From an uncultured Bacilli bacterium (GTDB lineage Bacteria; Bacillota_I; Bacilli_A; RF39; UBA660): a DNA stretch of 18,966 bases. The position numbers and the translations under genes were made by a program. Below are positions 423 to 18,966 of this stretch, piece after piece (position 1 is the stretch's first letter; each line of letters begins with the position of its first letter). The notes beneath the pieces were generated by a model. It saw only the letters and a program-made list of their open reading frames with translations, searched no databases and was not told the origin of the DNA. The stretch covers positions 1 to 18,966 of the forward strand of contig CALVSV010000063.1 of the NCBI GenBank assembly GCA_944359595.1, in the 5' to 3' direction.

Positions 423-445
423 TATATCAACTCCCTGCTAAGTTT

Positions 446-474: not shown

Positions 475-526
475 TTTATTTTTACAATTTTTCTTTGTTG
501 GTAGTGTGCAATGATTTATTAAATTA

Positions 527-3399: not shown

Positions 3400-3422
3400 T
3401 TAGAGAAACATTCCTTTCTTTG

Positions 3423-3743
3423 TCACTTAATTTTTTTTATTAGTAATAATAATTTATTTTCTTTTTCATCATATTTTTTTAAGGCATAGCCCCTTCTTAT
3501 CATTATAATATATTCCTTATTATTTGGAAATAGTTTTTTATTATTATGAATAATATTTCTAATTTGCCTTTTAATCTTATTTCTAACATAAGCTTTACCT
3601 ATTTTTTTAGATACAGTAATTCCAAATTTTTTAACATTACTATTAATATAATATATAGTAAAAGCATCGTTACATACAAATTGTTGATTATTAATTATTT
3701 CTTGAAATCTTTTATTTTCTTTTACAATATCTTCCTTATTCAT
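3423..3743 (-). CDS. rnpA: ribonuclease P protein component
   Basis: RnpA is the protein subunit of RNase P, which removes 5' leaders from pre-tRNAs. The family signature is present as RNKIKRQIRNII (residues 54-65), with the upstream strand FGITVSKKIGKAYV and a downstream YIIMIRRGYA strand. I place the start at the ATG at 3743-3741 (106 aa, MNKEDIVKENKRF), because GGATGTGAT precedes it and RnpA proteins begin close to such a KxxxF helix. An upstream in-frame start at 3776 would add 11 hydrophobic residues and run through the rpmH-rnpA hairpin, so it is unlikely. It lies 50 nt after rpmH and 23 nt before yidC. Confidence 0.95.
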   Translation of the reverse strand: MNKEDIVKENKRFQEIINNQQFVCNDAFTIYYINSNVKKFGITVSKKIGKAYVRNKIKRQIRNIIHNNKKLFPNNKEYIIMIRRGYALKKYDEKENKLLLLIKKIK

Positions 3744-3764
3744 AATATCACATCCAATTATTAG

Positions 3765-3790
3765 AAAAAAAACCACTCTAAAAAAAGTGG
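3765..3790 (-). terminator. attenuator-like hairpin between rpmH and rnpA
   Basis: On the minus strand CCACT (3790-3786) pairs with AGTGG (3777-3773) across an 8-nt loop and is followed at once by eight T residues. The stem is only 5 bp, so it probably lowers rather than stops transcription into rnpA. That would suit the far higher demand for L34 than for RnpA. Confidence 0.5.
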
Positions 3791-3793
3791 AAT

Positions 3794-3916
3794 TTATTTA
3801 CAAAGTCTTTTACGACCTTTTCTTCTTCTACTTGCTAATACATTAGAATCTTTACGAGCAAAAAAACCATGTTTCTTTTTCATTCTTTTTTTATTTGGTT
3901 GATAAGTTCTTTTCAT
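3794..3916 (-). CDS. rpmH: 50S ribosomal protein L34
   Basis: L34 is a small, very basic protein of the large ribosomal subunit. The 40 residues MKRTYQPNKKRMKKKHGFFA and onward match the family from the first residue (KRTYQPN start, then the HGFxxR and GRxxxxxRRxKGR patterns). The end is KGRKRLCK, slightly shorter than the usual 44-45 residues and with an uncommon Cys. A strong GGAGGTG ribosome-binding site lies 6 nt before the ATG at 3916-3914. It heads the leftward operon and diverges from dnaA across the origin, the classic arrangement in Bacillota. Confidence 0.96.
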   Translation of the reverse strand: MKRTYQPNKKRMKKKHGFFARKDSNVLASRRRKGRKRLCK

Positions 3917-3962
3917 TTTTCACACCTCCAAGCAATATATAAACTTTTTCTTCGCATATATA

Positions 3963-3990
3963 ATTATAAATAAATTATTTTTTTTGTCAA
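3963..3990 (-). promoter_or_regulatory. predicted sigma-A promoter of rpmH operon
   Basis: On the minus strand a perfect TTGACA (3990-3985) is separated by 16 nt from a perfect TATAAT (3968-3963), about 47 nt ahead of the rpmH ATG. This is the strongest promoter by sequence in the left arm and should drive rpmH, rnpA, yidC, jag and mnmE. Confidence 0.8.
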
Positions 3991-4027
3991 TATTTTTTAG
4001 ACATTTTATTATATATAAATTTAAATT

Positions 4028-4041
4028 ATTTCCCGAGAAAT
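4028..4041. promoter_or_regulatory. Noc-binding-site-like palindrome
   Basis: ATTTCCCGAGAAAT differs at one position from the Bacillus subtilis Noc-binding consensus ATTTCCCGGGAAAT. Noc is a ParB paralogue that blocks division over the nucleoid and binds many sites around the origin-proximal chromosome. noc itself is not in this window, so function is inferred from the site alone. Confidence 0.5.
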
Positions 4042-4074
4042 ATAACAAACTTTTAAAATTTATTTCCCAAAACA

Positions 4075-4305
4075 CTTTCCACAATCACTTGTGGAAAACT
4101 TTTCCCTATAACATATAGGGAAAAGTTAGTTATCCACAGTTTCCACAGGGCTGTGGAAAAAGTTATTAACAGTTGTGCAAAAGTTATCCACAGGTATGTG
4201 GATAACTAATATTTCCCTATATAAAATCTAGGTTTTAGTTGTGGAAAACTTTGTGGAAAACTTTTTTTTATGATTTTTTATAAAATTGCTTTTATTTTAT
4301 CCACA
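4075..4305. other. oriC: oriC, left part: DnaA-box cluster upstream of dnaA
   Basis: Four perfect DnaA boxes (TTATCCACA) lie at 4130-4138, 4184-4192 and 4297-4305 on the plus strand and at 4197-4205 on the minus strand. Related boxes (one or two changes, mostly TTTTCCACA) lie at 4075-4083, 4090-4098, 4139-4147, 4152-4160, 4174-4182 (TTTTGCACA type), 4240-4248 and 4252-4260, in both orientations. Two of them form an inverted pair around GG (4140-4159). The cluster sits between the divergent rpmH and dnaA genes, as in other Bacillota. The last box lies between the likely -35 and -10 of dnaA, consistent with autoregulation. The remainder of the rpmH-dnaA gap holds the Noc-like site, an inverted repeat and the two promoters. 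Confidence 0.92.
4097..4127. repeat. perfect 14-bp inverted repeat inside oriC
   Basis: AACTTTTCCCTATA at 4097-4110 is followed by a 3-nt spacer (ACA) and its exact reverse complement at 4114-4127. It contains two copies of TATAGGGAAA in opposite orientation and lies directly before a perfect DnaA box. No T tract follows and no gene ends here, so it is not a transcription terminator. Confidence 0.75.
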
Positions 4306-4318
4306 TTTAGTTTACAAT
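4291..4318 (+). promoter_or_regulatory. possible dnaA promoter overlapped by a DnaA box
   Basis: TACAAT at 4313-4318 is a reasonable -10. The best -35 at suitable distance is the poor TTTATT at 4291-4296 (16-nt spacer). A perfect DnaA box (4297-4305) occupies the spacer, so bound DnaA would repress its own gene. The hexamers are weak, so the exact position is uncertain. Confidence 0.35.
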
Positions 4319-4353
4319 ATGTAGTGTGAGGAGCAAATAAGGGAGGTGGTTCA

Positions 4354-5712
4354 ATGAATGTGAATAGTATTTGGAACAATTTCTTGGAAAACATTAAACT
4401 TCAAATTACGAGTTTATCCTATGAAACATGGTTTAAAAATACTAGATTATTAGAGATTAAAGATGGGGTAGCTAAAATTGTAGTCGAAACATATGTACAT
4501 AAAAAACATTTGTTGGAAAACTATACCGACTTAATTATAGAAACATTAAATTTAGTAACAGGTACAAATTTTTATATAGAGTTTGTATTGGAAGAAGAGA
4601 TAAATAATGATCAAGCAGAAATTGATGTTGATCTTATTGGTGTTCCTAATAGTAAAAATAGAATAGAATCTAATTTAAATTTAAAATATGATTTTGATTC
4701 ATTTATAGTAGGAGAGAGTAATAGATTTGCTCATGCAGCAGCATTATCAGTAGCTGAGAATCCTGGTAAAATGTATAATCCACTATTTATATACGGAAAA
4801 AGTGGGTTAGGGAAAACACATCTTATGCACGCAATAGGAAATTATATTGAAAATAATTCTTCAAAAACTGTATTATATGTTACTAGTGATCAATTTATTA
4901 ATGATTTTGTTGAGGTAAATAAAAAAGACAAAGATGATACAAATTATGATTATGTTGATTACTTTAAAAATAAATATAGAAATGTAGATGTGCTTATAAT
5001 AGATGATATACAATTTTTAGGTAGTGCAGCTCAAACACAACAAGAGTTTTTCCACACATTTAATAAATTATATGATGATAATAAACAAATTATTATATCA
5101 TCTGATAGATCACCAGATGATTTAAAAATATTGGAAGATAGATTAAGAACTAGATTTAGCTGGGGATTATCAGTGAATATTTTTCCACCTGATTTTGAGT
5201 TAAGAAAAAATATTTTAACAAAAAAAATTGCTGCTCAAGGAGTAAGTAGTAAAGTACCAAACGATGTAATAGAGTATATAGCTAATAATTGTCAATCTGA
5301 TATTAGACAATTAGAAGGTGCGGTGACTAGATTGTTTGCTTTTGCAACAATGATGAATGGATGCGATATAACACTAGATGTTGCGATTGATGCACTAAAG
5401 GATTATCTTCATAAATCAATTGGAGAAAAAAACAGCGTAACTAGAATTCAAAGAATTGTTGCAGATTATTATCACATTACCGTTGAAGATTTAAAAAGTA
5501 AGAAAAGAAGTATTGCAGTTTCTTTTCCTAGACAAATTGCTATGTATTTAACTAGAGTATTAACGAATGAATCATTTCCTAAAATAGGAATTGAATTTGG
5601 TGGAAGAGATCATTCAACTGTTATGCATTCAATTGATAAAATAGAAGGCGAGTGCAAAAAAAATGAAGAGCTAAAAAAGATAATAGAAACATTAAAACAA
5701 CAAGCAAAATAA
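4354..5712 (+). CDS. dnaA: chromosomal replication initiator protein DnaA
   Basis: DnaA binds DnaA boxes, forms an ATP-dependent filament at oriC, melts the unwinding element and loads the helicase. The 452-aa protein has all four domains: domain I (about 1-75, IWNNFLENIKLQITSLSYETWF), a short linker, the AAA+ domain III starting at YDFDSFIVGESNRFAHAAA with Walker A GKSGLGKT (148-155) and Walker B IIDDIQF with Asp217-Asp218, and the DNA-binding domain IV ending in the signature GGRDHSTVMHSI (DHSTV at 419-423). The ATG has a strong GGGAGGTGG ribosome-binding site. It is flanked on both sides by DnaA-box clusters, the bipartite origin layout known from B. subtilis. Length and motifs are normal for the family. 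Confidence 0.98.
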   Translation: MNVNSIWNNFLENIKLQITSLSYETWFKNTRLLEIKDGVAKIVVETYVHKKHLLENYTDLIIETLNLVTGTNFYIEFVLEEEINNDQAEIDVDLIGVPNSKNRIESNLNLKYDFDSFIVGESNRFAHAAALSVAENPGKMYNPLFIYGKSGLGKTHLMHAIGNYIENNSSKTVLYVTSDQFINDFVEVNKKDKDDTNYDYVDYFKNKYRNVDVLIIDDIQFLGSAAQTQQEFFHTFNKLYDDNKQIIISSDRSPDDLKILEDRLRTRFSWGLSVNIFPPDFELRKNILTKKIAAQGVSSKVPNDVIEYIANNCQSDIRQLEGAVTRLFAFATMMNGCDITLDVAIDALKDYLHKSIGEKNSVTRIQRIVADYYHITVEDLKSKKRSIAVSFPRQIAMYLTRVLTNESFPKIGIEFGGRDHSTVMHSIDKIEGECKKNEELKKIIETLKQQAK

Positions 5713-5719
5713 ATATGGT

Positions 5720-5860
5720 TGTGGAAAACTTAGTAGTTATCCACAGAGTTTTCCACAGCTCAAGATGCTTGTAAAACCTTATTTTATAGGGAAATATAAA
5801 GTTATCCACAGTTTTCCACAGTAATAACAATAATATATATAATATTAATATATAATAATA
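5720..5860. other. oriC: oriC, right part: DnaA boxes and A/T-only unwinding element
   Basis: Perfect DnaA boxes lie at 5737-5745 and 5802-5810. TTTTCCACA boxes lie at 5749-5757 and 5812-5820, and on the minus strand at 5720-5728. Each perfect box is followed closely by a TTTTCCACA box. Immediately after the last box the sequence is nearly pure A/T (5822-5860, with one C), a good candidate for the DNA unwinding element. Its first 12 nt (TAATAACAATAA) read as triplets resembling the DnaA-trio pattern described for B. subtilis. The boxes lie between dnaA and dnaN, the same place as the unwinding half of the B. subtilis origin. Confidence 0.85.
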
Positions 5861-5873
5861 GGGAGGTAAAGAG

Positions 5874-6995
5874 ATGAATTTAAAAATTAAAAAATCAATT
5901 TTATTAGAAAACTTATTAAAAGTTGAAAAAGCTATTTCAACAAAAAATATTATACCAATATTATCAGGTATAAAATTTGACTTAACAGAAAAGGGACTAT
6001 ATTTAATGGCTAGTGATAATGATATGACTATCCAAACATTTATAGATAAAGCTAATATAGAAGAAATTAAAACAATTGGGAGTGTTGTATTACAAGGTCG
6101 CTATATCGTAGAAATTATTAGAAAATTACCTGGTGAAGATATTTCTTTAGTAATGGTAGATGAATATAAAGTGTGTATTACAAGTGATTCTTCTACATTT
6201 AATTTAAATGCTATAGACCCTAATGAATTTCCAAAAATAAATATGGAAGATGGAAAAGTACAAGTTGAGTTATCTAAGGAAATGTTTAAAAATATTATTA
6301 ATCAAACTTCTTTTGCAACTTCAACACAAGAAACTAGACCACTATTAACTGGTATTAATTTAAAAATAGATGGAGATGTGTTAGAATGTACAGCAACTGA
6401 CTCATATCGACTTGCTAAACAATCAATTAAATTAAATAATTTTTATCAAGAAAAAATTAATATAGTAATTCCTTGTAAAAATATATTGGAATTAATGAAA
6501 ATACTTAAAGAAGATGAAGATATGCTTCACATACATATTTTTCAAAATAGAGTATTATTTAAATTTGATAATGTTCTTTTACAAAGTAGATTATTAAATG
6601 GTACATATCCAGATACATCTAAACTTATTCCAACTGAATATACATTAAAAATAGAAGCACCTTTGATGCAATTATATAATGTAGTTGATAGAGCATCATT
6701 ATTATCTAATGATAAAGAAAAAAATGTTATTAAATTAGTAACAGATAAAAATATTATGATAATATCTTCTAACTCTCCAGAAATTGGTAGGGTTGAAGAA
6801 AAACTAAGTATTGAAAAATTAGTTGATAGTGATATATCTATTGCTTTTTCATCAAAATATATGATGGATGCTTTAAGAGCACTAAAATGTGAAAAAGTAA
6901 TAATATTATTTAGTAGTGAAGTTAAACCAATAATATTAAAAAATCCAGAAAATGATAATATTACACAATTAATTTTACCAATTAGAACATACTAA
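5874..6995 (+). CDS. dnaN: DNA polymerase III beta subunit (sliding clamp)
   Basis: DnaN is the ring-shaped processivity clamp that tethers polymerase III and other repair and replication proteins to DNA. At 373 aa it has the usual three-fold domain architecture and family landmarks: N-terminal MNLKIKKSILLENLLKVEKAIS, the segment TSTQETRPLLTGINLKI, ATDSYRLA, the LLNGTYPDTSKLIP motif and the C-terminal LILPIRTY. The ATG follows GGGAGG at 8 nt, just after the A/T-rich element of oriC. It is likely co-transcribed with dnaA, although an internal promoter in the A/T-rich stretch cannot be excluded. A terminator begins at its stop codon, so dnaN closes the dnaA-dnaN unit. Confidence 0.98.
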   Translation: MNLKIKKSILLENLLKVEKAISTKNIIPILSGIKFDLTEKGLYLMASDNDMTIQTFIDKANIEEIKTIGSVVLQGRYIVEIIRKLPGEDISLVMVDEYKVCITSDSSTFNLNAIDPNEFPKINMEDGKVQVELSKEMFKNIINQTSFATSTQETRPLLTGINLKIDGDVLECTATDSYRLAKQSIKLNNFYQEKINIVIPCKNILELMKILKEDEDMLHIHIFQNRVLFKFDNVLLQSRLLNGTYPDTSKLIPTEYTLKIEAPLMQLYNVVDRASLLSNDKEKNVIKLVTDKNIMIISSNSPEIGRVEEKLSIEKLVDSDISIAFSSKYMMDALRALKCEKVIILFSSEVKPIILKNPENDNITQLILPIRTY

Positions 6996-7026
6996 ATAAT
7001 GGTTTTTGACCATTATTTTTAATTTT
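6995..7026 (+). terminator. rho-independent terminator after dnaN
   Basis: AATAATGGT (6995-7003) pairs perfectly with ACCATTATT (7009-7017) around a TTTTG loop and is followed by a T-rich tract. The last base of the dnaN stop codon is the first base of the stem. It separates dnaA-dnaN from comK. Confidence 0.8.
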
Positions 7027-7036
7027 TTGAATAAGG

Positions 7037-7062
7037 TCGACAAATTTTTACAATTTTCGACA
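7037..7062. promoter_or_regulatory. two Spo0A-box-like sites upstream of the comK homologue
   Basis: TTCGACA at 7056-7062 is the exact complement of the Spo0A box TGTCGAA, and GTCGACA at 7037-7043 matches it at 6 of 7 positions in the same orientation. Starts are 19 bp apart. No clear sigma-A hexamer pair was found in this intergenic region. Binding by Spo0A is inference and depends on the genome encoding it. Confidence 0.3.
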
Positions 7063-7126
7063 TTTTTTTATGTTATTTTTTAGGTGTAGGCAAATATTGT
7101 CTATATAGGGAAGGGGGTAATGTTTT

Positions 7127-7582
7127 TTGAATTATTATGAAATAAACGATAATACTTGTGCACTTGTGCCCGTTAGTGAGGAGAAAACTAAAGTATATGA
7201 ACTTGATAATACTTTTATTGTTGAACAAAATGTATTAAAAATATTAAATAACAGTTGTTTAAAATACGGTAGTTCATATGCGGGTAGGGCAGCTGCAACA
7301 AAATATGCAACCGGTTATACACATAAAGCACCAATATGTATTAATGAAAATAAAGTAACTATATTTTTTCCAACTAAATCACCAAGACTTAATACGTGTG
7401 CATGGATAAACTATAATAATATATATATTTATAGTAAACTTGATAAAAGATGTAGCGTTACATTTAAAAATAAAAAAACAATAGTTATTAACGTTAGTTA
7501 CTTAACGATTCAAAACCAAATGTTTAGATCTTCAAGATTAGAATACTACTTTAATAATGCTTTTCCACAGAGTTGTGGATAA
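7127..7582 (+). CDS. comK: ComK-family competence transcription factor homologue (short)
   Basis: ComK is the master activator of DNA-uptake genes in Bacillus and also exists in Listeria and Staphylococcus. This 151-aa protein shares the family's conserved core in order: YEINDNTCALVPV, the GSSYAGR motif (48-54), THKAPI (65-70), FFPT (80-83), CAWI (91-94) and SYLTIQNQMFRSSRLEYYF near the end. The last resembles the SYNSFENQVYRTAWLRTKF segment of B. subtilis ComK as I recall it. The start is a TTG with a good GGGGG ribosome-binding site 9 nt upstream; no in-frame ATG fits. It is about 40 residues shorter than the 192-aa B. subtilis protein and lacks the C-terminal part with the MecA-binding FMLYPK motif. 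It sits between dnaN and recF, an unusual place, and is flanked by terminators, so it is a separate transcription unit. Its final codons and stop lie in two DnaA boxes. Confidence 0.8.
   Translation: MNYYEINDNTCALVPVSEEKTKVYELDNTFIVEQNVLKILNNSCLKYGSSYAGRAAATKYATGYTHKAPICINENKVTIFFPTKSPRLNTCAWINYNNIYIYSKLDKRCSVTFKNKKTIVINVSYLTIQNQMFRSSRLEYYFNNAFPQSCG
7561..7582. promoter_or_regulatory. inverted pair of DnaA boxes at the comK stop codon
   Basis: TTTTCCACA (7561-7569) and TGTGGATAA (7574-7582, a perfect box on the minus strand) face each other across four bases. They encode the comK C-terminal residues FPQSCG and the TAA stop. This is a third, smaller DnaA-box cluster about 1.7 kb from the unwinding element. 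Confidence 0.7.
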
Positions 7583-7589
7583 CAAAAAT

Positions 7590-7625
7590 GAAAAAGTAAA
7601 AATTTTAATACTTTTTCTTTTTTTT
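7590..7625 (+). terminator. rho-independent terminator after comK
   Basis: GAAAAAGTA (7590-7598) pairs perfectly with TACTTTTTC (7609-7617) over a 10-nt loop and is followed by eight T residues. The 9-bp stem is A/T-rich. It separates comK from the recF-gyrB-gyrA unit. Confidence 0.7.
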
Positions 7626-7638
7626 AACAGTATTTTTG

Positions 7639-7647
7639 TGGTATAAT
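7639..7647 (+). promoter_or_regulatory. extended -10 promoter for recF-gyrB-gyrA
   Basis: TGGTATAAT is a perfect extended -10 element (TGN then TATAAT at 7642-7647), about 68 nt ahead of recF and just after a terminator. No good -35 is present at the usual distance, which is tolerated with an extended -10. Confidence 0.65.
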
Positions 7648-7714
7648 TGTATTGTGCGTATAGGTATACTAATATTATCATAAGGGTGGTTAAAATTTAT
7701 GAAAACGAGAAAAT

Positions 7715-10748
<3,034 letters not shown>

Positions 10749-10760
10749 GAGGTGTAATTG

Positions 10761-13211
10761 ATGGAACATGATAAATTAGAATCAAGAAATATTGTAGAAG
10801 AAATGGAAACTTCGTTTTTGGAATATTCGATGAGTGTTATTGTAGCTCGTGCACTTCCTGACTTAAGAGATGGATTAAAACCAGTGCATAGAAGAATATT
10901 ATACTCTATGTACGAAAGTGGATATACGCCAGATAAGCAGTATAGAAAAAGTGCGAAAACAGTAGGGGAAGTAATGGGTAATTATCACCCTCACGGAGAC
11001 TCTGCTATATACGAATCTATGGTAAGAATGGCTCAACCATTTAGCTATAGACATATGCTTATTGATGGTCATGGTAATTTTGGATCAATGGATGGTGATG
11101 GAGCTGCAGCAATGCGTTATACTGAAGCAAGATTATCAAAGATATCAATGGAAATGCTTAGAGACATAAATAAAAACACAGTTGACTTTGAAGCAAATTT
11201 TGATGGGACATCTAAAGAACCTACGGTACTTCCGTCGAGATTTCCTAATATATTAGTTAACGGTACTATGGGAATAGCTGTTGGTATGGCAACAAATATT
11301 CCACCACATAACTTAGGTGAAGTTATAGATGGGTGTGTTGCATATATTGAAAATGAGGATATTACAACAAATGAATTAATGCAGTATGTAAAAGGTCCTG
11401 ATTTTCCAACAGGAGCAATAATATTAGGTAATAGCGGTATAAGAAAAGCATATGAAACTGGTAAAGGAACAATTACTTTACGTGGTAAGGTTGAAATAGT
11501 AGAAAATCATGGTAAAAGTCAAATTATAATTACGGAATTACCTTATCAAGTAAATAAAAAAACATTTCAAGAACGAATTGGTGAACTTGTAAGAGATAAG
11601 GTTATTGATGGTATTTCTGATTTACATGAAGAAACTAATCTTGAAAATGGTATTAAAATAGTTGTTACTTTGAAAAAAGAAGCTAACGCTAACGTTGTGT
11701 TAAATAATTTATACAAACATACACAATTGCAAACAACATTTGGTATTACATTCTTAATGCTTGATGAAGGTCAACCAAAAACCTTGGGACTAAAAGATAT
11801 TATTTCAAAATATATTAATTTTCAACGAAGTGTAATTGTTAGAAGAACAAAGTTTGAACTTGATAAGGCTGAAAAAAGAGCACATATATTAGAGGGATTA
11901 AAAATAGCCCTAGATAATATTGATGAAGTAATTCAAATCATTAAAGAAAGTGAATCTGATATAGTTGCCAAAAATACATTAAAAGTAAAATATAATTTAG
12001 ATGATGTTCAATCAGAAGCAATTCTTGAAATGCGACTAAGAAGATTAACAGGATTAGAAAGAGAAAAAATAGAAAACGAAATAAAACAATTGTTGGAACT
12101 TATCGCAAATTTAAAATCAATATTAGCAGATGATAATAAAGTTTTAAATATTATAAAAGAAGAATTATTAGATATTAAAAACAAATATGCAGACGAGAGA
12201 AGAACACATATTGATATGACTGCAATAGAATATATTGAGGATGAATCATTAATACCTGTTGAAGATGTTATTATAACTTTAACAGATAATGGATACATTA
12301 AAAGAGTAAGTACTGATACTTATAAAACACAACATAGAGGTGGTGTCGGTATAAAGGGTATGAGTACTAACGATGAAGATAATGTAAAATATCTTTCTTC
12401 AGCGACGACGCATGATCATATATTATTCTTTACAAACAAAGGTAGGGTTTATCGTATGAAAGGATATGAAATTCCTGAATACAGTAGACAATCTAAAGGG
12501 TTACCAATAGTTAATTTGCTACCACTTGATAAAGATGAAAATATTAATAGTATATTGTCTGTAGCAAAACATAGTGAATATAAATATTTATTATTTGTAA
12601 CAAAATACGGAATTGTAAAAAGAACTAGCGTCGAAGAATTTTCTAATATAAGAAATAATGGAAAAATAGCAATTACTTTAAAAGAAAATGATGAACTTAT
12701 TGGTGTTAAAAAAACTACAGGAGAAAATTATATTTTAATTGGTTCTAATAAAGGAAGAATGATTCGCTTTAAAGAAAGTGAAATTAGAGTAATGGGAAGA
12801 AGTGCAAGTGGGGTAAGAGGAATAAATCTTCCAGACGACGCAATATGTGTTGGTGGAGAAATTTCAAACAACACTGATGAAGTATTAATTGTTACTGAAA
12901 ATGGATATGGTAAGCGTACTAATGTTGATGAATTTAGAGAAACAAAAAGAGGAAGTAAAGGTGTTAAATCACTTAACATTACTGAAAAAAATGGTACAAT
13001 AGTTGATTTTAAAACAGTAACAGATAACGAAGATTTAATGATTGTTACTAATAACGGTATGATGATTAGATTAGATATAAATAATATTTCTACAATGGGT
13101 AGAGCAACACAAGGTGTTAAACTTATTAATCTTAAAGAGGGTCAAAAAGTTTCAACTATTACTATTGTAACATCTGAAAACAATAATGAAGAAATTAAAC
13201 AAGAAGAGTAA
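10761..13211 (+). CDS. gyrA: DNA gyrase subunit A
   Basis: GyrA cuts and rejoins DNA during supercoiling. The 816-aa protein starts at the ATG at 10761, 6 nt after an AGGAGGTG ribosome-binding site that overlaps the gyrB stop; a TTG just before it is too close. The catalytic Tyr is Y120 (AAMRYTEAR). The quinolone-determining region reads [14 protein letters not shown]: it has the Ser equivalent to E. coli Ser83 and Glu at the Asp87 position, the usual sensitive state in Gram-positives. The C-terminal beta-pinwheel carries a variant GyrA box, QHRGGVG (524-530), against the usual QRRGGRG type. Later blades contain NGYIKR, NKGRVYR and NGYGKR repeats. The tail is acidic ([10 protein letters not shown]). 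It is the last gene of the recF-gyrB-gyrA unit. Confidence 0.98.
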
Positions 13212-13237
13212 GCATATAAAGCATGCTTGCTTTTCTT
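13210..13237 (+). terminator. possible weak terminator after gyrA
   Basis: AAGCAT (13210-13215) pairs with ATGCTT (13223-13228) over a short loop and is followed by a broken T tract. An alternative palindrome AAGCATGCTT lies at 13219-13228. The structure is modest and may only attenuate. Confidence 0.4.
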
Positions 13238-13238
13238 A

Positions 13239-13254
13239 TGTTCCACGTGAAACA
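13239..13254. promoter_or_regulatory. parS: parS site 1
   Basis: TGTTCCACGTGAAACA matches the bacterial parS consensus TGTTNCACGTGAAACA. It is the ParB (Spo0J) loading site used for origin segregation. Confidence 0.9.
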
Positions 13255-13576
13255 TAAATTTTACAATTAAGCAAATATTGTATATTATAAACGCTAAAAG
13301 TTTTGTATATCAACCGATAGTTGAGTTGGTTGATTTTGGGATTTCAGTTATTTTTTATGGTTAAAATATAATTCCTATATAATATATAGTTATTAAATGC
13401 AATCAAACTCATTAACTTAAATATGTATAACAAAAATAATTTTTATCAGCGTAACATATGTGCTTTATAAAAAAAATAAAAATAATTTTTGTAAAATTTT
13501 TTTGTTGTTGCTGATTTATATTTTTTTAAATTGTTTTTGTGTCAATGTTTTGAATAAAATTTTTGAATATGTCTTA
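13239..13576. repeat. parS-containing tandem repeat, unit 1 (338 bp)
   Basis: The unit begins with a parS site and a shared TTTTACAATT block, then carries a hairpin at 13309-13334 (ATCAACCGA / TTGGTTGAT around TAGTTGAG). It continues with a block containing two TATAAT-like words (13367-13372 and 13378-13383) and a long A/T-rich tail with TTGTTGTTGCTGATTTAT. No ORF of note, no tRNA and no transposase are present. It is nearly identical to unit 2 in its second half. Confidence 0.85.
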
Positions 13577-13592
13577 TGTTCCACGTGAAACA
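13577..13592. promoter_or_regulatory. parS: parS site 2
   Basis: TGTTCCACGTGAAACA, identical to site 1 and 338 bp from it. Confidence 0.9.
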
Positions 13593-13916
13593 TTAATTTT
13601 ACAATTTGATGTATATTTTCGAGATAAATACTAAAAAAAAAGGCATATCAACCAATAGTTGAGTTGGTTGATATTGAGATCTCTGTTATTTTTTTGTATG
13701 GTCAAAGTATAATTCCTATATAATATATAGTTATAAAATGCAATCAAACTCATTAACTTAAATATGTATGACAAAAATAATTTTTATCAGTGTAGCATAC
13801 GTGTTTTATAAAAAAATAAAAATAATTTTTGTAAAATTTTTTGTTGTTGCTGATTTATATTTTTTTAAATTGTTTTTAAATTAATATTTTAAGCATAAAT
13901 TTTTGAATATATCCTA
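13577..13916. repeat. parS-containing tandem repeat, unit 2 (340 bp)
   Basis: It has the same order of elements as unit 1: parS, ATTTTACAATT, hairpin, TATAAT-like block, A/T-rich tail. The hairpin here is the best of the three: ATATCAACCAA (13645-13655) pairs perfectly over 11 bp with TTGGTTGATAT (13664-13674) around the invariant TAGTTGAG. The stretch between parS and hairpin has diverged more than the rest. No gene is seen in it. Confidence 0.85.
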
Positions 13917-13932
13917 CGTTTCACGTGAAACA
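13917..13932. promoter_or_regulatory. parS: parS site 3 (one edge mismatch)
   Basis: CGTTTCACGTGAAACA is a parS core with the first base C instead of T. It lies 340 bp after site 2. Confidence 0.85.
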
Positions 13933-14191
13933 TAAATTTTACAATTAAGCAATTATTGTGTGCTATCAACGTCAAAAGTTTTGTATATCAACCAATAGTT
14001 GAGTCAGTTGATATCAAGATTTCAAATATTTTTTACACTGTTTTGGTAGGACAATATTATAATATATAGTGACAAGTATAATTTAAATTATTAAAGTGGG
14101 GGGGAGAATAACAAAACAGTTTTTTTGATAAAATAGTATATGTGTTTTATCAAATTGTTTTATTTCAATTTAATATTTTAAATACATTTTA
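13917..14191. repeat. parS-containing tandem repeat, unit 3 (275 bp, diverged)
   Basis: This unit keeps the parS, the TTTTACAATTAAGCAA block and the hairpin (13985-14014, stem reduced to 8 bp by changes on the 3' side but loop TAGTTGAG unchanged). It then diverges and lacks roughly 60 bp of the A/T-rich tail (the TTGTTGTTGCTG part) relative to units 1 and 2. It has gained a G7 run (14098-14104) and an inverted repeat CTGTTTTG / CAAAACAG (14038-14045, 14112-14119) followed by T7. Confidence 0.75.
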
Positions 14192-14207
14192 TGTTTCACG
14201 TGAAACA
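14192..14207. promoter_or_regulatory. parS: parS site 4 (perfect palindrome)
   Basis: TGTTTCACGTGAAACA is the fully palindromic parS form. It closes the array 275 bp after site 3 and lies just upstream of the SRP RNA promoter. Confidence 0.92.
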
Positions 14208-14233
14208 TTGTTGTGTTTTTTTAAATAATACTA

Positions 14234-14262
14234 TTGAAATAATCAATGGTATATAATATAAT
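14234..14262 (+). promoter_or_regulatory. sigma-A promoter of the SRP RNA gene
   Basis: TTGAAA (14234-14239), a 17-nt spacer and TATAAT (14257-14262) place the start site at about 14269. That is exactly where the SRP RNA stem begins. Confidence 0.8.
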
Positions 14263-14268
14263 ACTATT

Positions 14269-14342
14269 GCGCAACAAATATGTTGGAACCAGGTCAGAGT
14301 TGGAAGACAGCAGCCTTAACAATCTCTATTTGTGTGCGCTTT
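14269..14342 (+). ncRNA. ffs: signal recognition particle RNA (4.5S-like, compact)
   Basis: The conserved SRP domain IV is present: CCAGGTCAG, a GTT-GGAA-GAC tetraloop stem, then ACAGCAGCC (about 14289-14314). These give the symmetric CAGA/AGCA internal loop that binds the Ffh M domain. The outer ends pair well: GCGCA-ACAAATA (14269-14280) with TATTTGT-G-TGCGC (14327-14339), with one bulged G. Four T residues follow, suggesting termination there. The RNA would be only about 72 nt, a minimal hairpin without the Alu domain of the 6S-type B. subtilis scRNA. It neighbours tadA and dnaX, as scr does in B. subtilis. Confidence 0.9.
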
Positions 14343-14361
14343 TAATTTGTGGGTGAAAAAA

Positions 14362-14787
14362 ATGAGTGTATATTATAATGAGTTAATTAGATTATCTTGT
14401 AAGGCGGCAAATAATAACTGTGTCCCAGTTAGTGCAATGATTATATATAAAGATAAAATAATATCAAAAGCATATAATTTAAGAGATAAAACAAATAATG
14501 TTTTAGATCATGCAGAGGTTATAGCGATTAAAAAAGCAGCTAAAAGATTGAAAACATGGAATTTATCTGAATGTGAATTGTATGTGACAATGAAACCGTG
14601 TAATATGTGTACTTCTATTATAAATGAAGCGCGAATAAAAAAAATACACTACGTTTTAGAAAATAAAAAGTATGAAAATATAAAAATCAATGATAATGAT
14701 AGAATAGAATATATAATTGAAGAAGATGAAAATGATGATTATAAAAATATACTGAAAGATTTTTTTAAAAATTTGAGAAAAAAATAA
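14362..14787 (+). CDS. tadA: tRNA-specific adenosine deaminase TadA
   Basis: TadA deaminates adenosine 34 of tRNA-Arg(ACG) to inosine for wobble decoding. The 141-aa protein has the zinc-dependent deaminase motifs: DHAE with zinc ligand His50 and catalytic Glu52, and KPCNMC with Cys80 and Cys83. The family pattern normally reads EPCxMC; Lys here replaces the first Glu. I place the start at the ATG at 14362, after GGGTG. An upstream in-frame start at 14332 would begin inside the SRP RNA. The C-terminal tail is acidic and then basic (EEDENDDYKNILKDFFKNLRKK), as in many TadA proteins, which favours TadA over guanine or cytidine deaminase. Location next to SRP RNA and dnaX also supports this. Confidence 0.9.
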   Translation: MSVYYNELIRLSCKAANNNCVPVSAMIIYKDKIISKAYNLRDKTNNVLDHAEVIAIKKAAKRLKTWNLSECELYVTMKPCNMCTSIINEARIKKIHYVLENKKYENIKINDNDRIEYIIEEDENDDYKNILKDFFKNLRKK

Positions 14788-14794
14788 TTAATTA

Positions 14795-14824
14795 TTGAAT
14801 TTGATTTATATAAAATGTTATAAT
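14795..14824 (+). promoter_or_regulatory. predicted promoter for the dnaX operon
   Basis: TTGAAT (14795-14800) lies 18 nt before TATAAT (14819-14824). The -10 is extended (TGTTATAAT). It sits in the tadA-dnaX gap, 30 nt before the dnaX ATG. Confidence 0.65.
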
Positions 14825-14853
14825 CAATGTATCGATTTGTGAGGTGGAAAATG

Positions 14854-16449
14854 ATGTATAAAGCTTTGTATAGAAAATATAGACCAAAAAGTTTTGATGA
14901 AATATATGGGCAAGATGTTATAAAAAAAACTATTATAAACGAAATAAAAAATAATAAAATATCTCATGCTTACTTATTTTGTGGTCCTAGAGGTACTGGT
15001 AAAACAAGTGTTGCAAAACTTGTGGCAAAACTTATAAATTGTGAAAATTCTAAAAATGGTGTTGCGTGTAATGAATGCGAATCATGCAAACAAATAAATA
15101 ATAATTCAAACTTAGATATAATTGAGATTGATGCTGCATCAAATAATGGAGTGGATGAAATAAGAGAATTAAAGGATAAAGTAAAGTTTTTGCCAACAAT
15201 TTCAAAATATAAAGTATATATTATTGATGAAGTCCATATGTTATCGACAGGTGCTTTTAATGCACTTTTAAAAACATTGGAAGAACCACCTAAACACGTG
15301 GTATTTATTTTAGCAACAACAGAAGTTAATAAAATACCAATAACAATAATTTCTAGATGTCAAAGATTTGATTTTAAAAAAATTAGTTCTGAAAATATAT
15401 ATAATAGGCTAAAATATATTGTTAATGAAGAAAATATTAATATCACTGATGATGCTATTAAAGAAATAAGTATTTTATCTGATGGTGGATTACGTGATGC
15501 AATTGGACTATTAGATAAACTTGTATCTTACTCTGATGCAAAAATAACCGATGAAGACGTACATGCGGTGAACTATACCGTTACAAAAAAAGATATAAAA
15601 GAGTTACTAGAAGATATTAATAATAATAAAATTAATGAATACATATTAAAGATTAATGACTTAGATGATAAAGGTAAAGATTTAAATAAACTAATAGATG
15701 AAATTATAATATATTTAAGAGATGAATTATTATATAACAATAACAATTTTATGAAACCGGATAAAATAATAGAATTTATTAATTATTTTAATGATTTGTC
15801 AAATAAAATTAAAAACTCTAAATATCCGAAAATACTTTTGGAAACCGTCGTTTTTTCGTTAAATAAAACTACAAATTCAGATGTTGTAGTAAATATGAGT
15901 AGTAGTAACGATGTGATAAAAAAAGTTTCTAAACAAAGTAATAAAAAAACTGAAGAAGTTGAAGAAGCTAGAAAAATAAATAATTTTAAAGAACTTAAAG
16001 AATTAAGAATAAATAATACGTTTGCTAAAGCTAATAAAGGAGAACTTAATAAATTAAAAACAATGTGGCATAAAGTGCATGAATATTCTATTGATAATGT
16101 ATATGGTGTTGCTTCCGGTATGCTAATTGATGCTGAAATAGTAATGGCTTCAAAAAATAATATACTTGTAACATTTCCATATGAGTCAATGGCAGAAAGG
16201 GCAAATAATATAGTATATTTAATAGAATTTGTTTTAGAAAAATCATTTGATAATGATTATAAATTTATCGCTATATCAAATAGTGAATGGGATAAATTAA
16301 AAAAAGAATATATAAAAAATATTAAAAATGGTGTACAATATAAATATATAAATGAAATTGTTTCATATGATGATATTTTGAATAGTGAAAATACTATTAT
16401 TAATGATTCAATTGAATTGTTTGGCAGTGAATTGCTACAAATTGTATAA
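14854..16449 (+). CDS. dnaX: DNA polymerase III subunits gamma and tau
   Basis: DnaX forms the clamp-loader ATPase. The 531-aa protein starts MYKALYRKYRPKSFDEIYGQ; I chose the second of two adjacent ATGs, 7 nt from GAGGTG. Domains: AAA+ with Walker A GPRGTGKTS (44-52), a zinc module with Cys63, 72, 75 and 78, Walker B region YIIDEVHML (122-130), SRC arginine finger (167-169) and the sensor LSDGGLRDAI; an alpha-helical collar to about residue 350; a polar Lys/Ser/Glu linker; and a C-terminal domain (about 385-531) like tau. A run of seven A (15918-15924) in frame as A AAA AAA lies at the collar-linker junction. A -1 shift there would end two codons later, giving a 359-aa gamma-like form. It heads dnaX-ybaB-recR. 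Confidence 0.96.
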   Translation: MYKALYRKYRPKSFDEIYGQDVIKKTIINEIKNNKISHAYLFCGPRGTGKTSVAKLVAKLINCENSKNGVACNECESCKQINNNSNLDIIEIDAASNNGVDEIRELKDKVKFLPTISKYKVYIIDEVHMLSTGAFNALLKTLEEPPKHVVFILATTEVNKIPITIISRCQRFDFKKISSENIYNRLKYIVNEENINITDDAIKEISILSDGGLRDAIGLLDKLVSYSDAKITDEDVHAVNYTVTKKDIKELLEDINNNKINEYILKINDLDDKGKDLNKLIDEIIIYLRDELLYNNNNFMKPDKIIEFINYFNDLSNKIKNSKYPKILLETVVFSLNKTTNSDVVVNMSSSNDVIKKVSKQSNKKTEEVEEARKINNFKELKELRINNTFAKANKGELNKLKTMWHKVHEYSIDNVYGVASGMLIDAEIVMASKNNILVTFPYESMAERANNIVYLIEFVLEKSFDNDYKFIAISNSEWDKLKKEYIKNIKNGVQYKYINEIVSYDDILNSENTIINDSIELFGSELLQIV

Positions 16450-16450
16450 T
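16421..16450 (+). promoter_or_regulatory. possible internal promoter for ybaB-recR
   Basis: TTGGCA (16421-16426), an 18-nt spacer and TATAAT (16445-16450) lie at the 3' end of dnaX. It could supply ybaB and recR independently of dnaX. Confidence 0.4.
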
Positions 16451-16470
16451 ATAGAAAGAGGATGATATAG

Positions 16471-16770
16471 ATGAATATGCAAGCAATAATGAAACAAGCA
16501 CAAAAAATGCAAAAAGATATGATTAAAGATCAAGAAGAGATTCAAAATATGATATTTGAAGAAGAAAATTCTCAAGTATATGTTAAGGGAAATGGAAAAA
16601 AAGAAATACTTGAAATAAAATTCAAAGATATGGATAGTTTAGATAAAGATGATTTAGAAATGTTAAGCGATAGCTTAGTAGTAGTTATTAATAAATTTAT
16701 TGATAATGTTGATAAAGAAACTGAAAAGAAAATGTCAAAATATGGTAACGGATTAAACGGATTATTTTAG
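16471..16770 (+). CDS. ybaB: YbaB/EbfC family nucleoid-associated protein
   Basis: YbaB/EbfC proteins are small dimeric DNA-binding proteins almost always encoded between dnaX and recR, as here. The 99-aa sequence fits: an N-terminal Met/Gln/Lys-rich helix (MNMQAIMKQAQKMQKDM), a central beta region with VYVKGNGKKEILEIKF matching the usual V.G.g.v..i.i pattern, and a C-terminal helix before the MSKYGNGLNGLF tail (family: M..LTgGL.lPGLF). AGAGGA lies about 10 nt before the ATG. The function in this organism is inferred from the family; its exact role is not well defined anywhere. Confidence 0.92.
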   Translation: MNMQAIMKQAQKMQKDMIKDQEEIQNMIFEEENSQVYVKGNGKKEILEIKFKDMDSLDKDDLEMLSDSLVVVINKFIDNVDKETEKKMSKYGNGLNGLF

Positions 16771-16779
16771 GAGTAATAT

Positions 16780-17397
16780 ATGAAATTTCCAGAAAGTATA
16801 GTAAGCTTAATAAATGATTTCAAACACTTACCTGGAATCGGTGAAAAAAGTGCTGAAAGATTTGCATATCATATTATTGATATGGATAAAGAAGATGTTG
16901 AACATTTAGCGCAATCTTTATTGGATGTTAAAAATAAAATTAAGTTTTGTCCAAAATGTAATTTTATTACTGAAGATGATGAATGTTATATATGTTCTGA
17001 TAAAACTAGAAATAATGAACTACTTTGTGTTGTTGAAGATGTTAAAAGCGTAGTAATGTTTGAAAAACTTAATGTATATGATGGGAAATATTTTGTTTTA
17101 AACAATTTAATTTCTCCATTTGATAAGATAGGTCCTGATGAAACAAATATTGATGATTTAATAAACAATATTACTACTAATAACATAAAAGAAGTTATAT
17201 TAGCTATTAAACCAACCATTGAGGGAGAAGCAACTTCTATGTATATAGAAAAGTTATTAGAAGAAATAAACAAATCAACGAATAAAAATATTGTGATTTC
17301 TAAAATAGCGCATGGTATTCCCCTTGGTGTTGAGATGGAATATTTAGATTCATTGACTATTGAACTAGCTTTTAAAGATAGAAAGAAAATATCATAA
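16780..17397 (+). CDS. recR: recombination mediator protein RecR
   Basis: RecR acts with RecF and RecO in gap repair. The 205-aa protein has a helix-hairpin-helix (LPGIGEKSAERFA, 17-29), a four-cysteine zinc finger (Cys57, 60, 69, 72) and a TOPRIM domain from about residue 80 with LCVVEDV (Glu86), KPTIEGEATSMYI and the C-terminal HGIPLGVEMEYLDSLTIELAF. Family members normally have N(P/L)T(V/I)EGEAT, so the match is close. Its AGGAG ribosome-binding site overlaps the ybaB stop and only 9 nt separate the genes, so it is co-transcribed with ybaB. recF is in the same window. Confidence 0.97.
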   Translation: MKFPESIVSLINDFKHLPGIGEKSAERFAYHIIDMDKEDVEHLAQSLLDVKNKIKFCPKCNFITEDDECYICSDKTRNNELLCVVEDVKSVVMFEKLNVYDGKYFVLNNLISPFDKIGPDETNIDDLINNITTNNIKEVILAIKPTIEGEATSMYIEKLLEEINKSTNKNIVISKIAHGIPLGVEMEYLDSLTIELAFKDRKKIS

Positions 17398-17436
17398 TAT
17401 TTAATTCATCTCATAAATATTATTGAGGTGGACAAA

Positions 17437-17625
17437 ATGTTAAAAAAAATATTTGTTTTAATACGTAAAATTATTGTATCATGTTTTATTTTATATAGTT
17501 TTAATTTATTAGTTTCACCATTGTCAATAAATATACCTATTAATTATTATAGTGTCGCTATATTAACTTTATTTGAATTTCCTGGATTGTTATCGCTAGT
17601 TATAATATTTTTAGTAGCATTGTGA
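17437..17625 (+). CDS. BofA-like small membrane protein
   Basis: A 62-aa hydrophobic protein with a basic N terminus (MLKKIFVLIRK), a first membrane segment (about 11-27) and a second at 38-62. The stretch INIPINYYSVAILTLFEFPGLLSLVIIFLVAL resembles the C-terminal half of B. subtilis BofA, which as I recall it carries LHIPIN followed by GIPGLAALV; IPIN is at 33-36 and FPG at 48-50. BofA inhibits processing of pro-sigma-K in the forespore membrane of B. subtilis and is encoded right after recR there, as here. This protein is shorter than the 87-aa BofA because it lacks the first helix. The ATG at 17437 follows GAGGTGG; an upstream GTG overlaps that site. The stop is 11 nt before the holB ATG. 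A sporulation role is uncertain. Confidence 0.65.
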   Translation: MLKKIFVLIRKIIVSCFILYSFNLLVSPLSINIPINYYSVAILTLFEFPGLLSLVIIFLVAL

Positions 17626-17636
17626 GTGTGATTATA

Positions 17637-18476
17637 ATGAGTAATATAAATAATAGCATATTAGATAAAATAATTGAAAATGGCAAAATTTCTCACGCAT
17701 ATTTATTTGAAACAAATTATAGTGAAGAAAACATGAAAATTATTTATGATTATGTTAAAAATATTTTTTGCACAAATTTTGATGATAATTTATTAGAAAA
17801 TATTAAAAGGCGAATTGATGAAAATAATTATCCTGATTTAAAAATAATAAAAAAGGATACATCAGTTATAAAAAAAGAACAAATTATTGAATTAAAAGAA
17901 TATTTTTCGGTTACACCACAAGAAAACGAAGAAAGAATATATATAATTTATGAAGCAGAAAAAATGAATGAAAGTGCTGCAAACACATTACTTAAATTTT
18001 TAGAAGAACCAGAAGGAAAAATAATTGGTATATTGTTAACTGAAAATAAAAATTCGGTTATTTCAACACTTGTTTCTAGATGTCAGATTATATCGCTTGA
18101 TAAGAAACTTGATTTTATTGAACCTGAAAATTATATGTTAATTACTGAATTTTTACTTTCATTATTTAAAGACAAAATAAATATATATACAAAACTTAAT
18201 TCATATGATGAATTATTTGTTACAAAAGATATTTTATTAAATACAATGGAGGTAATGTTAGTAATATTATCTGATATAATTAATTATAAAGTTACTAATA
18301 AATTTATATATATTAAGTCTAATAAAAACATTGATTATATTTTAGATAAGTATGATGAATATTTTATTTCTAAAAAAATAACTATATTAAATGATTTAAT
18401 AGATAAACAAAAATATAATTTAAATTTAAATTTATTTTTAGATAACTTAATAATACAGTTGTGTGGAGATGATTAA
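17637..18476 (+). CDS. holB: DNA polymerase III delta' subunit
   Basis: Delta' is the clamp-loader subunit that works with DnaX and HolA to open the DnaN ring. The 279-aa protein has ISHAYLFET (18-26) at the start, IKKEQIIELKEYFSVTP, the IYIIYEAEKMNESAANTLLKFLEEPEG segment (101-127) typical of the family, and SRCQ (147-150) at the place of the arginine finger. It has no P-loop and no zinc-binding cysteines, as expected for a delta' with a degenerate ATP site. It is shorter than B. subtilis HolB. I chose the ATG at 17637, after GAGTGTGAT; a GTG at 17622 overlapping the preceding stop has no ribosome-binding site. Its neighbours bofA-like and ricT are close, with a 1-nt gap to ricT. Confidence 0.9.
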   Translation: MSNINNSILDKIIENGKISHAYLFETNYSEENMKIIYDYVKNIFCTNFDDNLLENIKRRIDENNYPDLKIIKKDTSVIKKEQIIELKEYFSVTPQENEERIYIIYEAEKMNESAANTLLKFLEEPEGKIIGILLTENKNSVISTLVSRCQIISLDKKLDFIEPENYMLITEFLLSLFKDKINIYTKLNSYDELFVTKDILLNTMEVMLVILSDIINYKVTNKFIYIKSNKNIDYILDKYDEYFISKKITILNDLIDKQKYNLNLNLFLDNLIIQLCGDD

Positions 18477-18477
18477 T

Positions 18478-18966
18478 ATGGTTGTAATTTCCAAAATAAG
18501 TGAACAAAAAAAACATATTTATTGTGAATGCAATATCAGTGATATTAAATTTAATGATATTGTTGTTTTGTCATATAATAATTTTGAATATTTAGCTACT
18601 GTTGTACAAGCTGATGTGGAAAACAAAAATAACGAGATAGAAGCAACCGTTATTAGAAAAGCTACTAATAAAGATATAAAAATAAACTTAGAAAATATTA
18701 ATGACAGTAGATTTGCTTATAAAAAATGTAAAAATCTTATAAAAAAGTATAATTTAGATATGAAATTACTAAGTGCTAGTTATTCACTAGACAAGAAGCG
18801 ATTGTTATTTAAATATGTTGCTGATGAAAGAATAGATTTTAGAAATTTAGCCAAGGATCTTGCATCAATATATAAAACACGTATTGAATTGAGACAAATT
18901 GGTATACGTGATAAAGCATCATTAGTATCTGGAATAGGTATGTGTGGAAGAGAACTATGTTGTGCA
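18478..18966 (+). CDS. ricT: PSP1-family protein RicT/YaaT (5' part, runs off right edge)
   Basis: The window contains the first 163 residues. The diagnostic PSP1 segment is VADERIDFRNLAKDLASIYKTRIELRQIGIRDKASLVSGIGMCGRELCC, which closely follows the family (FRELVKDLAS.F.TRIE.RQIGVRD.A...GG.G.CGR.LCC), including the C-rich CGRELCC. In B. subtilis YaaT is RicT of the Y complex (YaaT-YlbF-YmcA). That complex binds RNase Y, supports mRNA processing and affects competence, sporulation and biofilm formation. A GGAGATGAT ribosome-binding site lies within the holB end, and the ATG follows the holB stop by 1 nt, so they are co-translated. It matches the B. subtilis holB-yaaT order. Confidence 0.92.
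   Translation, partial: MVVISKISEQKKHIYCECNISDIKFNDIVVLSYNNFEYLATVVQADVENKNNEIEATVIRKATNKDIKINLENINDSRFAYKKCKNLIKKYNLDMKLLSASYSLDKKRLLFKYVADERIDFRNLAKDLASIYKTRIELRQIGIRDKASLVSGIGMCGRELCCA

Follow-up and report, generated by a model that had tools for sequence, protein, structure and literature searches.

The element described here is an array of four parS sites, the sequences bound by the partition protein ParB, that lies between gyrA and ffs in an 18,966-nucleotide stretch of DNA from an uncultured Bacilli bacterium (GTDB lineage Bacteria; Bacillota_I; Bacilli_A; RF39; UBA660; GenBank assembly GCA_944359595.1, contig CALVSV010000063.1, positions 1 to 18,966). This whole stretch is referred to as the window, and its genome, an assembly of 1.19 Mb in 166 contigs, as G000; other genomes carry G numbers, fetched stretches or loci L numbers, and contigs C numbers. 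Clusters of parS occupy the same interval throughout most of the family, and the array is probably a satellite-like, ParB-loading centromere of the chromosome and the one place of ParB loading. It would work like the tandem-repeat centromere of a plasmid, and by sequence it belongs to the chromosomal ParABS class.

The four sites of the window (Table 1) are spaced 338, 340 and 275 bp apart, and are the only parS sites of G000 at ≤1 mismatch genome-wide. Four matches were reached by none of 200 dinucleotide shuffles of the window, for which the mean was 0.09. The chromosomal parS consensus is TGTTNCACGTGAAACA, as given in PMC7022226; sites 1, 2 and 4 fit it fully, with TGTTCCACGTGAAACA (sites 1 and 2) as a permitted form, and site 3 deviates at its first base. 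In BLAST, unit 2 aligns with unit 1 along 337 bp (86% identity) and with unit 3 along 123 bp (74%). The 124 nt that follow sites 1, 2 and 3 are similar (75% and 85% to unit 1), and a further 154 nt are common to units 1 and 2 at 88%. A preliminary description of this DNA had placed four parS sites at the positions in Table 1, and both coordinates and spacings are confirmed. Its statement that each site starts a homologous unit holds for sites 1 to 3 and fails for site 4, which closes the array beside ffs, leaving three units and four sites. The dedicated cluster close to the origin that it described is borne out as well, the array starting 8,885 bp from the start of dnaA and parS occurring in the same interval of relatives.

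An imperfect 29-bp palindrome, TATCAACC...GGTTGATA, is readable by eye at 13308–13336 in unit 1 and 13646–13674 in unit 2, and recurs with a mismatch in one arm at 13986–14014 in unit 3.

Distribution across the family was surveyed in 193 genomes with recR as the anchor, 178 of which gave a recR match. One hundred recR loci were fetched with up to ~10 kb upstream of each (two of them as 15-kb stretches) and, together with the window, searched for parS at ≤2 mismatches from four canonical forms, gaps being taken to begin 30 bp before the point where the gyrA match ends. Loci with gyrA and dnaX on one contig are termed intact, and 76 of the 101, window included, are of this kind; this is not an unbiased fraction, because loci were picked from a similarity-ordered list, among the matches listed, and later batches skipped those near a contig start.

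Two to 19 parS sites lie in the gyrA–dnaX gaps of 74 of the 76 intact loci. The preliminary description had proposed a search of relatives for parS in the gyrA–ffs interval; with the window set apart, 73 of 75 intact relatives carry two or more sites in the gaps. Gap counts (with numbers of loci) are 0 (1), 1 (1), 2 (18), 3 (20), 4 (12), 5 (6), 6 (7), 7 (2), 8 (1), 9 (5), 11 (2) and 19 (1). The loci with no gap site and one gap site, L147 and L158, both have extra parS inside dnaX. In total, the 76 loci hold 332 sites, seven inside dnaX and 325 in the gaps, the latter divided into 264 between gyrA and tadA, 55 between tadA and dnaX, and six in a locus without a tadA match. No parS was found before the gyrA end (minus 30 bp) or after dnaX in the fetched stretches of these loci.

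The same address dominates at the genome level. For instance, the gyrA–dnaX span, with a median gap length of 1,056 bp, holds 321 of the 364 parS-like sites found at ≤2 mismatches in the 76 genomes. The 43 sites outside the span compare with 35 matches of a reversed control pattern in the same genomes, which is near background. Forty dnaA regions were also fetched, of which L257 and L259 lacked dnaA and were dropped, leaving 38 relatives plus the window; the dnaA neighbourhoods of the relatives (8.2–8.5 kb each) contain no parS at ≤1 mismatch.

Outside the family, parS is sparser. In 258 genomes of the same class and other families, there are at most four parS-like sites each at ≤1 mismatch, 147 of these genomes having one or more. 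With pattern and threshold unchanged, up to 22 sites are found in 36 family genomes; at two mismatches, the 193 family genomes have up to 28. Among named dnaX loci (the best 80 of 593, many being contig pieces without gyrA), parS occurs between gyrA and the dnaX end in eight of the 80 (L009, L019, L020, L029, L031, L039, L047 and L053) and elsewhere in two (L052 and L071). Since L029 (Erysipelotrichaceae) and L053 (Erysipelotrichia) have two sites each, the gyrA–dnaX address may be older than the amplification.

How the arrays arise and change can be read from the sequences that flank the sites. Flank statistics were drawn from 396 sites with 20-bp flanks in 95 genomes. Mean flank identity is 0.578 within arrays (per-genome median 0.458) and 0.401 between genomes, and parS identity is 0.962 and 0.917, respectively. 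In 33 of 91 arrays, at least one pair of flanks is more similar than 99% of the pairs drawn from different genomes, and the other 58 are without a recognisable flank repeat. The preliminary description had suggested that the sequence between the parS sites is either under selection or recently duplicated. The first of these is not supported: when one site per genome is compared, information is limited to parS and 1–3 bases on either side. Selection on whole spacers was rejected as a candidate, given this near-zero flank information across genomes and the lack of a match to the 340-bp unit beyond the array in G000, where no other good match was found and the two weak ones span 26 and 46 bp. In six near relatives, the unit gives five short matches, confined to two of them, at an E value of 1.4e-5 or weaker, one lying on parS. 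Selection thus appears to act on parS and not on the spacers, because spacers are unrelated between genomes and parS is constant. The duplication alternative fits, and array evolution is read as tandem duplication with homogenisation, followed by decay of all but parS.

Exact parS variants are shared within arrays at a rate of 0.575, compared with 0.226 after shuffling (sd 0.024, maximum 0.296; 93 arrays, 401 sites), although common ancestry of the copies alone would also produce such homogenisation. Some arrays are strictly regular (L123, with 19 sites every 36–38 bp; L145, with 10 every 55 bp; and L141, cut by a contig end, with 11 every 42 bp), and others are irregular. In intact loci, no gap spacing is <29 bp, and the median is 103 bp for the 244 spacings under 600 bp. 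Spacings of 26 and 28 bp occur in L161 and L109, both cut by a contig end.

A neutral satellite, in which one functional parS is enough and additional copies are tolerated, functionless by-products of slippage or unequal recombination close to the origin, is an unlikely alternative. It would account for the slippage-like, short-period regularity of L123, L143 and L145, for the homogenised variants, and for the disparity between genomes of one genus, such as G075 with four sites 156–163 bp apart and G207 with 14 in view at 42–44 bp. It sits poorly with the decay of flanks in most arrays to a median (0.458) close to the between-genome value while parS stays intact at 0.962, with a recognisable flank pair in only 33 of 91 arrays, and with the persistence of two or more sites in 74 of the 76 intact loci.

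Contig ends bear on how the counts are to be taken. In 25 of the 101 loci, the contig stops before gyrA is reached; a parS site lies no more than 186 bp from the break in 20 of these, and the other five (L115, L116, L119, L152 and L174) have no parS in view. These 25 stand outside the 76, and those with parS were included in the flank and variant statistics. Contigs carrying the gyrA end were fetched for ten genomes and have 1–12 adjoining parS (L297–L305, L308 and L310), with L305 and L308 extending to tadA. Assemblies often break within the array, and parS counts are therefore lower bounds. These breaks, and the 166 contigs of G000, could be taken to mean that the array is an artefact produced when the metagenome was assembled or binned. 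This is very improbable: the units of the window differ by 14–26%, so simple assembly duplication is unlikely; parS clusters lie inside long contigs of other genomes, for example 11 sites in one of 297 kb (G030) and two in one of 245 kb (G026); and 76 loci have clusters uncut by a contig end, the breaks suggesting under-counting rather than invention.

Two known systems come close to the array. With the chromosomal ParABS systems of Bacillus subtilis, Pseudomonas, Caulobacter and Myxococcus, it shares the same 16-bp consensus, a canonical-looking ParB and origin-proximal sites. Table 1 of PMC7022226 gives parS counts of 10 for B. subtilis (eight in the ori domain), 22 for Myxococcus xanthus (22 of 22), and nine for P. 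aeruginosa (four in the ori domain). In contrast to these systems, the sites of this family lie in a single gap (median 1.06 kb) at distances from 29 bp to several hundred bp, their flanks are recognisably repeated in 33 of 91 arrays, and their variants are homogenised within a genome; at times they stand inside dnaX, and in many relatives they are mixed with Noc-like sites. The second point of comparison is sopC of the F plasmid, which consists of 12 tandem 43-bp repeats with an inverted repeat in each. Like sopC, the array has head-to-tail units with one palindrome each, and periods of 36–44 bp are found in L123, L141 and L173 (14 sites at 42–44 bp in the last), so that the plasmid-centromere-like look noted in the preliminary description is upheld as regards layout. 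Unlike sopC, the array is chromosomal, with chromosomal parS and a Spo0J-like ParB, parAB are not adjacent where read, and the spacers no longer look repeated in many relatives of G000. Capture of a plasmid centromere by the chromosome, for which the tandem units with one palindrome each might speak, is scarcely credible in view of the shared synteny of the fetched family loci, where the sites stand between gyrA and ffs/tadA/dnaX, the chromosomal type of parS and ParB, and the location of parB away from the array (in one relative, in the order rsmG, noc-like, soj, parB).

Not all sites are intergenic. The seven parS inside dnaX come from four of the 76 intact loci: two in L147, one each in L149 and L154, and three in L158. 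Copies in L147, L154 and L158, as well as in the named loci L020 and L047, are in frame and encode VSRET, VPRGT, VPRET or VSRGT; this in-frame reading covers all dnaX parS loci named except the weak L149 site. They sit in a variable linker stretch of dnaX before the C-terminal part, with neighbouring copies a whole number of codons apart (L158, 54 and 48 bp; L147, 162; L020, 45 and 45; L047, 66). Coding copies also bear on the idea that the CACGTG palindromes serve some other regulator, for instance of gyrA or ffs transcription. Site 4 does end 55 bp before ffs, and a sigma70-like promoter is readable by eye directly downstream. Yet up to 19 sites per locus, sites within coding sequence, ParB in 191 of 193 genomes, and a sequence that is the chromosomal parS consensus leave this idea next to no credence.

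ParB and SMC, which would be expected to act at such an array, are present. Of the 193 family genomes, 191, G000 among them, encode ParB-type proteins, mostly two per genome; the preliminary description had named absence of parB as a ground for refutation. The ParB and Noc-like sets considered here are open reading frames (ORFs) that passed motif filters, not all that exist. The first type is ~296 aa long, and Spo0J is the best solved match of the G000 protein. That protein (L211:194-1081) has a helix-turn-helix (HTH) region and carries the motif GERRVKA, in which K replaces the last R of GERRxRA; GERRx[RK]A is present in 50 of 50 distinct ParB ORFs, the selecting filter itself having required GERR. 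SMC, whose presence had also been proposed as a check, was matched in 22 of the 24 family genomes searched, the exceptions being G003 and G019; in G000, the gene is split between contigs C57 and C144, and neither piece reaches the model cut-off. Adjoining soj and parB were seen in L213 and L219. One relative has the order rsmG, noc-like, soj, parB, and G201 has soj and parB without a noc-like gene. No par gene is among the window ORFs by reading of their translations, and the parB of G000 lies on another contig.

Variation in ParB may track variation in its sites. The recognition stretch is SRS[HY] in 48 of 50 ParB ORFs, the exceptions being SRTH in G192 and NRTH in G034, and the ParB of G140, read separately, has SRTY. 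All nine span sites of G034 are TGTTACACGTGTAACA, and all four sites of G140 have A at parS position 5 (A5) on one or both half-sites. G192 has no exact TGTTACACGTGTAACA in a search of the genome, its array not having been fetched. Covariation of the S-to-T change in ParB with A5 is thus possible, and would lend weak, suggestive support to the idea that ParB reads these arrays. Two further cases are G166, with five copies of an odd parS variant and a ParB with MSHAK (MGHAR in most, MSHAR in three others), and G148, with two A5 sites (ParB not read).

A scheme for the array can be drawn from established ParB biology. ParB–CTP dimers would bind each parS, close as clamps and slide onto the adjoining DNA, and ParB at the array would recruit SMC and ParA, the latter driving movement. 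Several adjacent sites would raise the loading rate, buffer the loss of single sites, and keep SMC loading at one address. The array itself would grow and shrink by tandem duplication and homogenisation, with selection keeping parS as the spacers drift. More tentatively, in relatives with Noc-like sites in the array, it would be a dual loading platform for ParB and Noc. We infer that ParB/SMC loading would be concentrated at the array, as the preliminary description surmised, and a strong, redundant loader at one address is the likely benefit. That multiple parS near oriC may improve robustness is suggested in the Kawalek 2020 review (PMC7022226).

Several observations weigh against a ParB-loading centromere at this address. 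When two mismatches are allowed, a fifth parS-like site appears in G000, and this lies outside the array. Copy number varies from 2 to 19 parS between loci, and helical phasing of parS at 10.0–11.0 bp is absent (smallest P 0.071, n=89 genomes). Two of the 193 family genomes gave no ParB match. ParA (soj) was not seen in G000, where the parB contig (C112) starts just before parB; the genome as a whole was not searched for it. The covariation is drawn from two genomes, G034 and G140, and A5 half-sites coexist with an SRSH ParB in G083 (3 of 9 sites) and G203 (2 of 19); A5 is also found in one of three G180 sites (ParB not read).

A second palindrome accompanies parS in many relatives. Its sequence, TATTTCCCGGGAAATA, is what we take to be the consensus of the Bacillus Noc site (NBS). 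CCCGGG was not found in the main text of PMC4331003. Across the 101 loci, which amount to 880 kb, the palindrome has 102 exact matches and 37 with one mismatch, compared with none at 0–1 mismatches for nine composition-matched control palindromes in the same loci; three of the controls gave 102–131 matches at two mismatches because they are two changes from NBS. At ≤1 mismatch, NBS are found in 168 of 193 family genomes, with 0–23 per genome, and a reversed control gives a single match in all 193. In the search of relatives, 33 of 36 family genomes had NBS versus 2 of 23 others.

The NBS share the address of parS. Of 175 in the 76 genomes (≤1 mismatch; median 2 per genome), 111 lie in the gyrA–dnaX span, with 85 in the gaps and 26 inside dnaX; of the remainder, 10 fall in other parts of the fetched stretch and 54 outside it. 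They are present in the gaps of 39 of 76 loci and in gaps or dnaX of 50. Offsets to the nearest parS are common, within 2 bp, to 0.285 of NBS pairs versus 0.023 under random placement (24 loci with two or more gap NBS; 1,000 draws, maximum 0.113), and fixed offsets are seen in L104 (35–36 bp), L121 (44–46), L179 (27–28) and L088 (59–60). Composite units are clearest in two genomes. G004 has 66-bp units, each with parS and NBS, and in G022 an array of 13 NBS and 12 parS alternates every 78–80 bp after gyrA up to the contig end. Since the gyrA end adjoins parS/NBS arrays on two G022 contigs (C1 and C53, with C68 also among the contigs noted), the counts for this genome may mix strains. Some facts run counter to a simple rule that NBS accompany parS: NBS are missing from both gaps and dnaX in 26 of 76 loci and from the whole genome in 25 of 193, and within many loci their offsets do not agree.

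The window array has no NBS at up to 3 mismatches, and the site upstream of dnaA (Table 1) is the only match in the window. At ≤2 mismatches, a single NBS is found in G000 and in each of its two nearest relatives; that of G201 lies 318 bp upstream of dnaA. A family rule of NBS upstream of dnaA was considered and dropped, as it applies to only 2 of 39 loci, window included.

The second ParB type resembles Noc. It has an open frame of 328–595 aa in the rows listed. The G000 paralogue (L251:505-2055) has 517 aa with a long Asn/Gln-rich linker, and its best solved matches are nucleoid occlusion protein chains. Against TIGR04285 (Noc, cut-off 315 bits), it scores 281 and the L213 protein 297, both below the cut-off, and their ParBs score 246 and 244. 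QS-x-x-[AS]NK and ERHAR stretches are present in the paralogue. In three aligned Noc-like proteins, a long linker without counterpart in ParB precedes the C-terminal part, and its composition reads as disordered. At the longest ATG/GTG/TTG start, 12–26 residues (16 in G000) precede the PNRFQPR stretch in 15 filter-passing Noc-like ORFs, and residue 8 of the G000 protein aligns to residue 27 of chain 7nfu_A. Judged by length alone, an N-terminal amphipathic membrane helix was not found, and the little room for one argues that Noc is not a classical membrane tether here.

The resemblance to Noc of B. subtilis is thus partial. As in that system, there is a Noc-like paralogue, together with sites identical to the presumed Bacillus NBS consensus. 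About 70 NBS are spread round the B. subtilis chromosome, according to Adams 2015 (PMC4331003), in contrast to the median of 2 per genome and the 111 of 175 in one span in the family. A distribution of many sites round the chromosome and absent from the terminus was not found in these draft genomes, in which the terminus was not located. The family protein also differs in its short lead before the PNRFQPR stretch and its long linker. There is about an even chance that the chromosome in this family carries a dual-protein, satellite-like centromere, in which parS and Noc sites are co-amplified as composite units in some genomes (e.g., G022). On this reading, Noc, with a long linker that is disordered and without a membrane helix, would no longer be a division blocker dispersed over the chromosome and tethered to the membrane, and would have taken on a new role beside ParB, bound at the origin.

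If the centromere reading is true, a rapidly evolving array can serve as the centromere of a bacterial chromosome, with the binding site conserved while the surrounding repeats turn over, a pattern shared with eukaryotic satellites and some plasmids. Natural arrays of 2 to 19 parS, with spacings from 29 bp up, would then offer a ready test of why bacteria keep several parS, and of the packing limit of ParB clamps and SMC loading. Co-amplified Noc sites would mean that ParB paralogues, which are at separate chromosomal addresses in B. subtilis, can share one, and would raise the question of the role of Noc without a membrane anchor.

The window holds the replication-origin region of G000, with gene order read from translations. 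One side has mnmE, a jag-like gene, yidC and rnpA, and the other dnaA, dnaN, comK, recF, gyrB, gyrA, the array, ffs, tadA, dnaX, a ybaB-like gene, recR, a bofA-like gene and a holB-like gene. Names are readings of translations, except for those with Pfam or Rfam matches.

Table 1. Positions of the parS array and of other features in the window
Feature	Position	Strand	Basis or remark
parS site 1 (TGTTCCACGTGAAACA)	13239..13254	.	1 mismatch to TGTTTCACGTGAAACA
parS site 2 (TGTTCCACGTGAAACA)	13577..13592	.	1 mismatch to TGTTTCACGTGAAACA
parS site 3 (CGTTTCACGTGAAACA)	13917..13932	.	1 mismatch to TGTTTCACGTGAAACA
parS site 4 (TGTTTCACGTGAAACA)	14192..14207	.	Perfect, 0 mismatches; array end, 55 bp before ffs
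Repeat unit 1, 338 bp	13234..13571	+	Sequence comparison
Repeat unit 2, 340 bp	13572..13911	+	Sequence comparison; 86% identical to unit 1
Repeat unit 3, 275 bp	13912..14186	+	Sequence comparison; shortened and diverged
gyrA	10758..13211	+	Left border of array; tblastn anchor, name from translation
ffs, small signal recognition particle RNA	14263..14348	+	Right border of array; Rfam RF00169, 54.7 bits
tadA-like deaminase	14362..14787	+	ORF and family match
dnaX	14827..16449	+	ORF reading
dnaA	4354..5712	+	Replication-origin reference point; name from translation
Noc-site-like palindrome (TATTTCCCGAGAAATA)	4027..4042	.	Only one in G000 at ≤2 mismatches; 327 bp upstream of dnaA
ComK-family gene	7127..7582		PF06338, E 2.7e-41; between dnaN and recF

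A gene for the master regulator of competence is unexpected in the origin region. The position of comK between dnaN and recF recurs in 50 of the 50 loci, out of 101, in which dnaN and recF were both matched. A BofA-like protein is encoded downstream of recR at 17428–17625 (PF07441, 36 bits), in what is a very small genome.

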